NCBI RefSeq assembly: GCF_014204755.1
Contig: NZ_JACHLZ010000001.1
Span: 2,046,001-2,110,000 of the forward strand
Length of the DNA stretch: 64,000 bases
DNA from: Brachybacterium aquaticum
GTDB lineage: Bacteria; Actinomycetota; Actinomycetes; Actinomycetales; Dermabacteraceae
Reading direction: 5' to 3'
The position numbers and the translations under genes were made by a program. Numbering within the stretch: the stretch's first letter is position 1; the number at the start of each line of letters is the position of its first letter. The notes under the pieces were generated by a model, which worked only from the letters and a program-made list of their open reading frames with translations, was not told where the DNA came from and searched no databases. Of this stretch, positions 47,122 to 50,845 are shown in pieces.

Positions 47122-48030
47122 TCAGAGCAGCCCGGCGGCGTCCAGGGCGGCGGACAGCTCGCGCTGCTGCTCGGCGTCCGCGGCGACGAGCGGGCCGCGC
47201 ACGGTCGCGTTCGGGAGCACGCCCTGCAGGTGCAGGGCGGTCTTGGCGGCGACCGCGCCGGGGATGCGGGTCATGATCGCCTCGACCAGCGGGATCAGGC
47301 GGCGGTGGGCGTCCAGCGCCGCGGCGACGCCGGAGCGGTCCATCGCCTCGACCATCGCGCGCTCGAGGTCGCCGGCGACCTGGCCGACCACGGAGACCAT
47401 GCCGGCCGCGCCGATGGACAGCCAGGGCAGGTTCAGCGCGTCCTCGCCGGAGTAGTAGACGAGGTCGGAGCGCTCCATGACGACCGCGGCCTGCTGGAGG
47501 TCGGCCTTGGCGTCCTTCACGGCGAGGATCCGCTCGTGCTCGCCCAGGCGCAGCAGGGTGTCGGTCTCGAGCGCCGTGCCGGTGCGGCCGGGGATGTCGT
47601 ACAGCATGATCGGCAGGTCCGTGGCGTCGGCGATCGCCTCGGTGTGGGCGATGACGCCGGCCTGGCCGGGCTTGGAGTAGTAGGGGGTGACGACCAGCAG
47701 GCCGTCGAGTCCCAGGTCCGCATGGGCGCGGGCCAGCTCGACCGAGTGGGCGGTGTCGTAGGACCCCACCCCGGCGAGGACCGAGACCTCGGGGCCGACG
47801 GCCTCGCGGACCGCCCGGGCGAGGTCGACCTTCTCCTGGTCGGAGAGGGTCGGCGACTCGCCGGTGGTGCCGGAGACGACGATCATGTCGTTGCCGTGGG
47901 CGACCACGTGGGCGGCCAGAGCCTGGGCGGCGTCGAGGTCCACCCCGAGTCCGTCCGCGGTCAGCGGGGTCACCATCGCGGTCCCCACCGCGCCGAAGGG
48001 TCGCGCGGTGCGCGGATCGGTGCCGGTCAT
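47122..48030 (-). CDS. dapA: 4-hydroxy-tetrahydrodipicolinate synthase
   Basis: DapA (302 aa) condenses pyruvate with aspartate semialdehyde, the first committed step to diaminopimelate and lysine. The class I aldolase features are clear: VVSGTTGESPTLSDQEK, LVVTPYYSKPGQAGVIAH (with the catalytic Tyr), YDIPGRTG and the Schiff-base lysine in LAVKDAKADL. GGGAGGAG precedes the ATG. It is co-directional with rnj (downstream) and asnB (upstream, 55 nt away). Confidence 0.97.
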   Translation of the reverse strand: MTGTDPRTARPFGAVGTAMVTPLTADGLGVDLDAAQALAAHVVAHGNDMIVVSGTTGESPTLSDQEKVDLARAVREAVGPEVSVLAGVGSYDTAHSVELARAHADLGLDGLLVVTPYYSKPGQAGVIAHTEAIADATDLPIMLYDIPGRTGTALETDTLLRLGEHERILAVKDAKADLQQAAVVMERSDLVYYSGEDALNLPWLSIGAAGMVSVVGQVAGDLERAMVEAMDRSGVAAALDAHRRLIPLVEAIMTRIPGAVAAKTALHLQGVLPNATVRGPLVAADAEQQRELSAALDAAGLL

Positions 48031-48085: not shown

Positions 48086-50845
48086 TCACCGCGAGGACGC
48101 GGTGCCGAGATCCACGAGGATCGCCAGCGGCGTGCGCTGACGGCCCTGACCCAGCGGATTGTCCGCGAAGGTCGCCTCGAGGACGTCGTTCGAGGTCGCG
48201 ACGTCGGAGCCGAGGACGTTGCGGCCGATGTCGTTGGCGTCCATCACCACGGTGCCCACGAAGCTCTTCTTCAGCGCGTCGGGGATGTCCGCGGCGCGGA
48301 TCGCGGCGGAGATCTGCGCGGAGACCTGGTCCGGATCCTTCGGCGGCAGCTTCGCGGAGACGTTGGACGGGAACGCCGAGTACGGGGTGGGGCCGTCGAT
48401 GGCGCGCACGTTCGCGCCGACGACCTCGTAGAACAGTCCGCGCTTGCCGACCACCTTTCCGGCGGCGCCCACGGCGGAGGCCGCGACCACGCGGGGCAGG
48501 CCGACCTCGCGGATCGCCAGCTCCATGGTGGTGGGGTCGCCGAGGCCGATGCCGGCGGGGGTGCGGCTGACGAAGCGGCTGAGCACCTTGGCGGAGCGTC
48601 GGGGCTTGATCTCCCAGGTGAACCAGGAGCGGTTCTGGGAGATCGCGATGATCTTCTCGCTGATCACGAAGTACCAGGGCGCACCGTCCGGGACCACGTC
48701 GGCGGGCAGGGAGGAGGCGAAGGCCTCGACCCGCTCGCGCGCGATCCGCACGATGTCGTCGCCGCGGGCGACCAGCGCGGTCTGCAGCGGCAGGCGGCGC
48801 CAGCTGTGGCCGTCGGCCTCGGAGACGAGGTCGAGCTGCTTGTCGGGGTTGGCGACGTAATCGCTCTTGGGCACGACCTCCTCCTCGACCGCGGGCGCGG
48901 AGGCGAGGGCGGCCGGGGCCGGAGCGGCCGCGAGGGCGGCCTCGTCGGCCGAGCCGCCGAGCGCGCGGGTCGCGCCCTCGGCGTCGTCGAAGAAGGTCCG
49001 CATCCACAGCTCGACGTTCAGCAGGCGCCAGAACATGAGCGTGCCGTGGTTCTCGGGGTGGGCGATGTAGTCGTCGAACAGCGCCAGCACGCTGGGGGCG
49101 TCGAAGTAGGGGCGCGAGGCGAAGGACTGCGAGGCGAAGATGTCGCGCAGCTGCGGGGCGATCGAGCGGAACCACTCCCCCTCGGGGGTGGTGAAGCCGA
49201 TCTTGTTTCGGCGCTTGGAGATCATGTCGGGCAGGATCCCGTCCATGGCCTCGCGCAGGATGCGCTTGTTCCAGCCGTCGTGGATGATCGCGGACTCGTC
49301 CAGGGAGAACAGGAACTTCAGCAGCTCCTTGTCCACGAACGGCACGCGCCCCTCGATGCTGAAGCGCATCGTGTTCTTGTCCTCGTAGCGCAGCAGCGAG
49401 GGCAGCGAGGCGCGGAAGGTGTCCTCGATCAGCCGCTCCTTGAGGTCGTCCTGGACGCTGGTGACCTTCTCGCCGCTGTGCTCGGCGACGAAGCCGGAGT
49501 TCAGCAGCGCCTCGATCGGCACGGAGGTGCGGCCGGAGAACTTGGTCCTCGCGAGCTTGCGCAGGATGTCTCTCGAGCCGACCATCTCGCTCGCGAGCTC
49601 CTTGAACCGCTTCTGGCGGCGCAGCTGGCGCAGGTAGACGTAGAAGTAGGGGTTGTAGCCGGCCATCATCTCGTCGGCGCCCTGGCCGTCCAGCAGCACG
49701 GTGACGTGCTGGCTGGCCACGCGCATGACCGCGTACTGGGCGTACGGGCCGGTGGAGATGATCGGCTCCTCCTGGGTGCGCACGAAGTCGTGCAGGTCCT
49801 CGAGGAAGGCGCCGGGCTTGGGGGTGATCTTGTGCGGGGTGACCTGCCCCTGGTAGTCCTCCAGCAGCGCGTCCACGTACCGCTCCTCGTCGTTGGAGGA
49901 GTTGGGGAACACGGCCGAGAAGGTGTTCTGGCGGCTGCCGACGGCGCTGAAGCCCTCGTCGCCGGGCTGCTCGCGCAGCTGGCGGGCGATGACGGCGGCG
50001 ACGGCGGAGGAGTCCAGACCGCCGGAGAGCGAGGTGCCGACGGGGACCTCGGACTGCAGGCGCAGCCGCACCGACTCCTGGAAGCGCTCGCGGTACTCGT
50101 CCACAACCTTCTCGTCGTAGGGGCGGGAGGGGCGGGCGGCGATCTCGCGCAGCTCCTCCTTCAGGCGGGTGAAGGAGGAGACGTCGGTGCCGTCGGGGCG
50201 GATCTCGAGGATCTCGCCGGACATCAGGCGGTTCACGCCCGCGAAGAAGGTGCGGGAGTCGTCGTCCTGGACGCGGAACTTCAGGTAGCGGTAGACCGCG
50301 CGGTCGTCCGGCGCGGCCTCGAAGACCTTCGCCGCCAGCAGCGAGCGGATCTCGGAGCCGAAGACGATGCGCGGGGCGGCGCCGGCCTCGGTCGCGGGGT
50401 CGATCCAGTAGTACAACGGCTTGATGCCGAAGTGGTCGCGCGCCAGGGTGATCGTGCCGGTGGTGGCGTCGTGGATCGCGAAGGCGAACATGCCGTTGAA
50501 GCGGTCGTAGGCGGCGGTGCCCCACTCGGCGTGGGCCTCCAGCAGCACCTCGGTGTCCGAGTCGGTGCGGAAGACGTGCCCGAGCTCCTCGAGCTCGGCG
50601 CGCAGCGCGAGGTAGTTGTAGGTCTCGCCGTTGTACACGATGGTGTAGCGGCCGTCCGCGGTGGTCATCGGCTGGGCGCCGTGCTCGCGGCCGATGATGG
50701 CGAGGCGGCGGTGGGCGAGTCCGGTCTCGCCGTCGACGAAGAGGCCTTCGCCGTCGGGGCCGCGATGGGCCAGCGCGCTGCTCATCCGGCGGGCGATGCC
50801 CTCGGTGTCAGCGCCGAATCCGTAGGTGCCGGCGATTCCGCACAT
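48086..50845 (-). CDS. asnB: Glutamine-hydrolysing asparagine synthetase fused to an F420-0:L-glutamate ligase-like domain
   Basis: This 919-aa protein has three parts. Residues 1 to about 623 are a complete class B asparagine synthetase: nucleophile Cys2 (MCGIAG), the glutaminase RIVYNGE-type loop (TIVYNGETYNY), and the synthetase pyrophosphate loop SGGLDS (274-279). A 34-residue Ala/Pro/Glu linker follows. Residues about 658-919 resemble the CofE-type F420-0:L-glutamate ligase fold as found in stand-alone proteins: GDDIVRIARERVEAF, YFVISEKIIAIS, RTPAGIGLGDPTTMELAIRE, RAIDGPTPYSAFPSN, KLPPKDPDQ and VVMDANDIGRNVLG. Asparagine synthetases are normally about 500-650 aa. The second domain is continuous in frame, with no stop or frameshift. 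Roles considered are asparagine synthesis, amidation of cell-wall diaminopimelate (as LtsA in corynebacteria), or making an amidated gamma-glutamyl compound; none is shown. AAAGGA precedes the ATG. Confidence 0.85.
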   Translation of the reverse strand: MCGIAGTYGFGADTEGIARRMSSALAHRGPDGEGLFVDGETGLAHRRLAIIGREHGAQPMTTADGRYTIVYNGETYNYLALRAELEELGHVFRTDSDTEVLLEAHAEWGTAAYDRFNGMFAFAIHDATTGTITLARDHFGIKPLYYWIDPATEAGAAPRIVFGSEIRSLLAAKVFEAAPDDRAVYRYLKFRVQDDDSRTFFAGVNRLMSGEILEIRPDGTDVSSFTRLKEELREIAARPSRPYDEKVVDEYRERFQESVRLRLQSEVPVGTSLSGGLDSSAVAAVIARQLREQPGDEGFSAVGSRQNTFSAVFPNSSNDEERYVDALLEDYQGQVTPHKITPKPGAFLEDLHDFVRTQEEPIISTGPYAQYAVMRVASQHVTVLLDGQGADEMMAGYNPYFYVYLRQLRRQKRFKELASEMVGSRDILRKLARTKFSGRTSVPIEALLNSGFVAEHSGEKVTSVQDDLKERLIEDTFRASLPSLLRYEDKNTMRFSIEGRVPFVDKELLKFLFSLDESAIIHDGWNKRILREAMDGILPDMISKRRNKIGFTTPEGEWFRSIAPQLRDIFASQSFASRPYFDAPSVLALFDDYIAHPENHGTLMFWRLLNVELWMRTFFDDAEGATRALGGSADEAALAAAPAPAALASAPAVEEEVVPKSDYVANPDKQLDLVSEADGHSWRRLPLQTALVARGDDIVRIARERVEAFASSLPADVVPDGAPWYFVISEKIIAISQNRSWFTWEIKPRRSAKVLSRFVSRTPAGIGLGDPTTMELAIREVGLPRVVAASAVGAAGKVVGKRGLFYEVVGANVRAIDGPTPYSAFPSNVSAKLPPKDPDQVSAQISAAIRAADIPDALKKSFVGTVVMDANDIGRNVLGSDVATSNDVLEATFADNPLGQGRQRTPLAILVDLGTASSR

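Follow-up and report, generated by a model that had tools for sequence, protein, structure and literature searches.

A candidate replacement of the MurT-GatD lipid II amidotransferase in Brachybacterium: an asparagine synthetase fused to a CofE-like ligase domain

In lipid II, the alpha-carboxyl of D-Glu is amidated by GatD-MurT (PMC3266927; all papers are cited here from excerpts), and neither Staphylococcus aureus nor Streptococcus pneumoniae can do without this amidation (PMC8554201). The same carboxyl carries glycine (Gly) in Intrasporangium calvum (PMC3035309) and polyamines in Negativicutes (PMC10628300). Here, we analyzed a 64,000-nucleotide stretch of the Brachybacterium aquaticum genome (contig NZ_JACHLZ010000001.1, positions 2,046,001 to 2,110,000; hereafter, the window) and, within it, a gene of 919 codons plus stop on the minus strand (48086..50845) encoding an asparagine synthetase (AsnB) fused to a domain resembling the F420 ligase CofE (CofE' domain). 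We propose that this fusion probably stands in for the lipid II amidotransferase MurT-GatD as a non-orthologous replacement. A role in wall precursor synthesis is well supported, and the D-Glu alpha-carboxyl as its target is fairly well supported.

Our verdict is that the fusion works like MurT-GatD without being a member of that family. Both systems combine a carboxyl-activating ligase with a glutaminase, they would share substrate and outcome, and in one congener murT-gatD sits at the locus of the fusion. However, MurT has a Mur-ligase fold and acts with the class I GatD, whereas the fusion pairs a CofE fold with a class II AsnB glutaminase, and no match to MurT_C (PF08353) was found in its own genome. 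With CofE and the N-terminal domain of FbiB, the fusion shares the fold, a GDD stretch near the N terminus, a C-terminal Gly-rich loop and the metal-site Asp150 (probably Asp109 too), but it lacks the segment following Asp150 as well as Arg234, has AsnB attached and is encoded in a genome in which no CofD besides YvcK was found. Similarly, it shares a class II glutaminase and an ATP-pyrophosphatase synthetase domain with AsnB, LtsA and the N-acetylglutaminylglutamine (NAGGN) amidotransferase, but its AsnB forms a clade of its own, has DGQGADE instead of SGEGSDE and carries the CofE' domain.

Exchange with murT-gatD after dapA

CofE' was found in 20 of 24 Brachybacterium genomes, 18 of them with frames of at least 894 codons and two with short frames, and MurT in only one, G017. 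This genome gave no CofE' match, nor any AsnB or CofE' match in the region collinear with the window. Its murT (PF08353, 95.5 bits) and gatD (GATase_3, 109 bits) both lie between dapA and azlC, in the order ftsK, rnj, dapA, gatD, murT, azlC, azlD, membrane protein gene, dapB, M16 peptidase gene, pnp and rpsO, with a gap of about 0.8 kb between dapA and gatD. The window has the same order with the fusion replacing gatD-murT, with identities of 76% for ftsK, 84% for rnj, 72% for dapA, 77% for azlC, 74% for dapB, 66% for the M16 peptidase and 90% for pnp. In G017, FtsK, DHDPS, DapB, MurT, GATase_3, RNase J and PNPase were assigned by Pfam and the remaining genes by tblastn or by eye; the window has an additional gene, HAD-type by eye, between the fusion and azlC.

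The downstream neighbor of the fusion in the window is dapA (47122..48030, minus strand), which marks the locus where the congener has murT-gatD (L281). Of 18 named Brachybacterium loci, 17 have the CofE' domain upstream of dapA at a distance of about 1 kb or less; only L047 departs from this, its copy being diverged and its contig short. At the 33 other loci tested, this adjacency was never seen. Because of this restriction to the genus, dapA, which an earlier reading made from the sequence only had noted as the next gene, gives no hint at diaminopimelate (DAP) chemistry. The position after dapA matters because murT-gatD occupies it in a congener. Furthermore, tblastn found none of the window's neighbors in the 12 to 17 kb around eight more murT-gatD loci from this order (f6, f8, f4, f15 and four of f16), indicating that murT does not usually stand at the site after dapA. 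The simplest account is that two functional equivalents were exchanged at a single site.

The two parts of the fusion and their spread

The CofE' domain (residues ~658-919; 48089..48874, minus strand) was computed to have the CofE fold. It matches PF01996 (F420_ligase) with 24.2 bits, just under the curated cutoff of 25, and an E value of 2.7e-5, and the cutoff is passed by its relatives P0166 (27.8), P0206 (25.7) and L173 (33.5). Its match to CofE ends at CofE residue 222, so that the F420-stacking Arg234 falls outside the matched part, as judged from alignment and domain end only, and the CofE segment after Asp150 (G153-C155) has no counterpart in the alignment. In all, 45 columns are invariant in 53 CofE' sequences, Clostridia included, among them N666, R684, E730, K731, Q737, D817, N828, D869, D872, N896, P897 and Q900. 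CofE Asp150 aligns with the invariant Asp869 in a mixed alignment, and Asp817 is probably the counterpart of Asp109, an assignment made by motif, although the mixed alignment places it a few columns off. A FastTree phylogeny of 151 CofE' domains, with two CofE as the outgroup, separated an IDG clade with Gly after the Asp817-type Asp (101/101, support 0.84) from an IDD clade with Asp at this place (50/50, support 0.985). The window's domain falls in the IDG subfamily.

The AsnB part (residues ~1-620; 48986..50845, minus strand) consists of a class II glutaminase with Cys2 and a synthetase domain, with SGGLDS at residues 274-279 and DGQGADE at residues 386-392, where SGEGSDE of Escherichia coli AsnB includes Glu348. 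It is joined to CofE' by a linker (residues ~623-657; 48875..48979, minus strand) of low model confidence, the predicted local distance difference test score being below 50 at residues 623-627 and 630-657. Of the 112 listed proteins with a length of 780 aa or more, the window's included, Cys-Gly follows Met1 in 98, and SGGLDS and DGQGADE are present in 89 and 84, respectively. In the fused AsnB clade, Glu348 is replaced by Gln and the TTIRAS stretch lacks its Arg. In a tree of 39 AsnB-type proteins, which contains some long branches, 11 fused and two operonic AsnB (L097 and L098) formed one clade (100/92), with E. coli AsnB and the sole LtsA-type reference, L268, outside it. The gene ltsA adjoins ctaC, and we took L268 as LtsA since it adjoins a frame with a CuA-like motif.

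In several relatives, AsnB is degenerate or lacks Cys2. P0062, a close relative of the partial Micrococcus luteus record P0129, and the Micromonosporaceae protein P0200 have only a short region before CofE', in which Pfam sees a weak AsnB remnant or none; P0187 of B. hainanense resembles them, but this record is partial and cut. Similarly, the window's AsnB had no match by tblastn (E 1e-15) in the Dermabacter locus L042, with a frame of 805 codons, or in L047 of B. phenoliresistens, where the contig stops 0.5 kb upstream. Since CofE' stays conserved while AsnB degenerates, it is CofE' that is constant and AsnB that is optional.

The CofE' domain query against proteins of 505 to 1608 aa gave 1221 matches, and Brachybacterium, Helcobacillus, Terrabacter, Knoellia, Flexivirga, Rudaeicoccus and Intrasporangium were named among the 120 listed. 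With the domain alone, we obtained 4786 matches; among the 120 listed, many were of stand-alone length and a few were named F420-0 ligase. Labels on the named matches among those listed were asparagine synthase, F420 ligase, hypothetical protein and, once, redoxin protein. A contig scan gave 53 loci, including fusions in Schaalia, Actinomyces and a Coriobacteriales metagenome-assembled genome (MAG) and stand-alone genes in Clostridia and Oscillospiraceae. The carriers in the genus include B. tyrofermentans, isolated from cheese. The same architecture across relatives shows that the join is real and not an assembly error. No CofE' domain was detected in 14 genomes from other families of the order.

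In G253 and G351, asnB and cofE' are separate and adjacent (end to end in L097), within the run ftsZ-pgeF-yggS-sepF-proC-yggT-asnB-cofE'-divIVA-yggU (asnB assigned by Pfam, the other names by reading the sequences). Their CofE' domains lie inside the smallest group that holds the fused ones, which comprises 26 sequences, stand-alone-length proteins included. AsnB and CofE' are therefore inherited together, as one pair that seems to occur in a fused and an operonic state.

Co-occurrence with MurT and rival explanations

MurT_C and CofE' were searched with the same settings in two genome samples, which we assumed to be the same genomes for both because numbers and listed handles agree; genomes without a match were not all listed. 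Lactococcus lactis, the control for the MurT search, had MurT. In the Actinomycetota sample, CofE' (both subfamilies) was present in 27/396 genomes, MurT in 223/396 and both in only four (G076, G142, G244 and G370). MurT was thus found in 4/27 carriers versus 219/369 noncarriers (P = 8e-6 by a Fisher test, which, like those below, ignores kinship). In the Bacillota-type sample (the phylum of G430), CofE' was present in 122/299 genomes, MurT in 104/299 and both in 40. Subfamilies were classed in 91 of these 122 carriers, as well as in 19 Actinomycetota genomes. With this split, made after the scores were seen, MurT occurred in 2/48 Bacillota-type genomes with IDG only versus 64/177 without CofE' (P = 4e-6); neither of the two genomes with both IDG and IDD had MurT. 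In Actinomycetota, MurT was found in 3/13 IDG carriers. Within family f17, three carriers lacked MurT and 4/5 listed noncarriers had it (weak matches, E values of 7e-6 to 4e-9), and within f41, two carriers lacked it and six noncarriers had it (noncarriers without MurT not all being listed).

For the substrate, the nucleophile, the order of steps and the job of AsnB, we infer the following. CofE' would use a nucleoside triphosphate, as CofE uses GTP, and a divalent metal to activate one carboxyl of the stem peptide of peptidoglycan as an acyl phosphate, with the D-Glu2 alpha-carboxyl as the likeliest target, and would join it to an amine, either ammonia or glycine. AsnB would supply glutamine-derived ammonia as this amine; alternatively, its ammonia would amidate a carboxyl left free, e.g., that of an added glycine. 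Given the differing wall substituents reported, the nucleophile probably varies among carriers, with ammonia and glycine as the candidates for the window's fusion. The sequence-only reading had proposed that the fusion serves a wall bridge or makes a soluble gamma-glutamyl compound. Its link to the cell wall was strengthened by the locus exchange and by wall gene contexts, and the fusion itself and the CofE homology also held, but the evidence favors the task of MurT-GatD, the substitution of a carboxyl on the stem peptide, over such products.

Several observations weigh against a replacement of MurT-GatD. The exchange is a single case: of the four Brachybacterium genomes without CofE', two are incomplete (74% and 88%), one is G017 and the last, G013 (99% complete), has neither CofE' nor MurT, so that MurT in 0/20 carriers versus 1/2 complete genomes gives P = 0.09 for presence alone. 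The MurT loci of relatives in f41 lie elsewhere. CofE' and MurT coexist in G076, G142, G244, G370, G505 and G575, and over the whole Bacillota-type sample MurT is about as frequent in carriers (40/122) as in the other genomes (64/177; P = 0.62), exclusion being restricted to IDG. Moreover, IDD coincides with MurT in 30/41 Bacillota-type genomes but in 0/6 Actinomycetota, and the subfamily split can therefore not explain the exclusion in Actinomycetota. None of these statistics is corrected for phylogeny, and the split is post hoc. Amidase or flippase links were found at 40/50 IDD loci but at only 8/76 loci of IDG, the window's subfamily. Simple ammonia delivery does not account for the intact AsnB synthetase domain that many members have. 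Finally, the excerpted description of B. faecium murein lists mDAP (meso-DAP), Ala and Glu without glycine (PMC3035206), suggesting that glycine may not be the nucleophile genus-wide.

This last point bears on a sharper form of the replacement hypothesis, compatible with it, in which CofE' ligates Gly to the D-Glu alpha-carboxyl, AsnB amidates the Gly carboxyl, and lineages with free Gly have lost AsnB. We regard this version as possible, although rather doubtful. In its favor, the I. calvum wall has Gly on D-Glu (PMC3035309), and peptidoglycan of B. vulturis and B. avium contains Gly, at a position not determined there (PMC6090031). An I. calvum strain (L040) and B. vulturis (P0016) both carry the fusion, and AsnB is a remnant in the partial M. 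luteus record P0129 and its full-length relative P0062. Micrococcus also has Gly on D-Glu. The AsnB part reaches 297 bits with TIGR03104 (N-acetylglutaminylglutamine amidotransferase), under the cutoff of 570, and its Glu-to-Gln change recurs in another AsnB-type clade (L249). However, "glycine amide" was not mentioned among the literature matches listed.

Apart from this version, the fusion is probably not an LtsA-type amidase, a plain asparagine synthetase or an F420 enzyme. That its AsnB amidates the mDAP epsilon-carboxyl, as LtsA and Bacillus AsnB do, with CofE' having a separate wall job, seems improbable to us. Such AsnB proteins have precedents (PMC8554201, PMC7920481), Brachybacterium walls hold mDAP (PMC6090031), and besides the fusion, PF00733 gave only one partial 28.5-bit match in the genome, LarE-like by eye. 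Nevertheless, the fused AsnB and L268 belong to different clades, and Intrasporangium, with LL-DAP in its type species (PMC3035309), has the fusion as well. Moreover, the fusion replaces murT-gatD in the genus and belongs to a subfamily seldom found together with MurT, whose target is D-Glu. An ordinary asparagine synthetase that bears an accessory domain would be in agreement with a TIGR01536 score (asparagine synthase AEB) of 410.1, above the cutoff of 267.1, but we consider it very improbable given the loss of Glu348 and the TTIRAS Arg, which we presume to be catalytic, and the degeneration of AsnB in relatives that keep CofE'. Additionally, no asparaginyl-tRNA synthetase scored above the cutoff in the genome, and tRNA charging may therefore not require free Asn.

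The least credible reading takes the protein for a coenzyme F420 gamma-glutamyl ligase with an asparagine synthetase attached. The CofE fold and the PF01996 match speak for it, but the domain lacks the F420-ligase features described above, and the sole match to PF01933 (the CofD family) in the genome is YvcK, judging from its rapZ-yvcK-whiA setting (cofC was not searched). Furthermore, a separate, classical CofE/FbiB-like protein is encoded elsewhere in the genome (L065; G000:C1:851306-851893, minus strand; 394 aa from the ATG taken; PF01996, 146.8 bits). L065 adjoins a WhiB-looking gene, and its presence contrasts with the lack of any CofD-family match other than YvcK.

Wall-related neighbors of cofE' and a second route

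We examined 131 loci and found a called gene in 126 (76 IDG and 50 IDD). The IDD links counted above (within four genes, or Amidase_3 fused) comprise Amidase_3 at 26 loci, a SpoVB/YtgP-like flippase at 14 and MurJ at two, as well as fused Amidase_3 at 12; these are raw counts with no background rate for comparison. In Pfam, the L161 and L168 flippases gave matches to Polysacc_synt and, over the cutoff, to MurJ, and L173 was resolved into Amidase_3 plus F420_ligase. Further IDG links are a GlmS-like gene (by eye) at four loci, the ftsZ cluster at two and MurT at one (L104).

We tentatively suggest that CofE-fold, GTP-type ligases represent a general second route to D-Glu alpha-carboxyl substitution in peptidoglycan precursors, with ammonia or glycine joined by IDG members (alone or with their own AsnB) and other amines, e.g., a diamine, by IDD members. 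If so, long-known wall substitutions that lack an explanation would trace back to genes of this family (Gly on D-Glu in Intrasporangium and Micrococcus, perhaps also cadaverine on D-Glu), and which enzyme puts glycine or diamines on D-Glu would become a directly testable question. No MurT match was found in 195/299 Bacillota-type and 173/396 Actinomycetota genomes, for part of which CofE' is a candidate replacement.

An Orn/Lys/Arg decarboxylase gene lies at most two genes from cofE' in 10/50 IDD loci (L105, L182, L185, L215, L220, L222-L225 and L232), directly downstream in eight, and a diamine might thus be the joined amine. In L168-L176, L230, L234 and L235, an N-acetylmuramoyl-L-alanine amidase (Amidase_3) and CofE' form one chain, and 11 of these 12 adjoin a SpoVB/YtgP-like flippase. 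Members of family f54 (L104 of G142, L103 of G370, and G244) have a diverged CofE', IDG-type where classed, alongside MurT; in L104, cofE' directly adjoins a MurT gene with a GATase_3-like tail. P0206, from a Candidatus Saccharimonadales MAG, has the CofE' domain fused to an AhpC/TSA peroxiredoxin. In L108, L109 and L113, CofE' follows a long, seemingly repeat-rich N-terminal part (TPR-like by eye), and L108 and L113 lie near MurJ.
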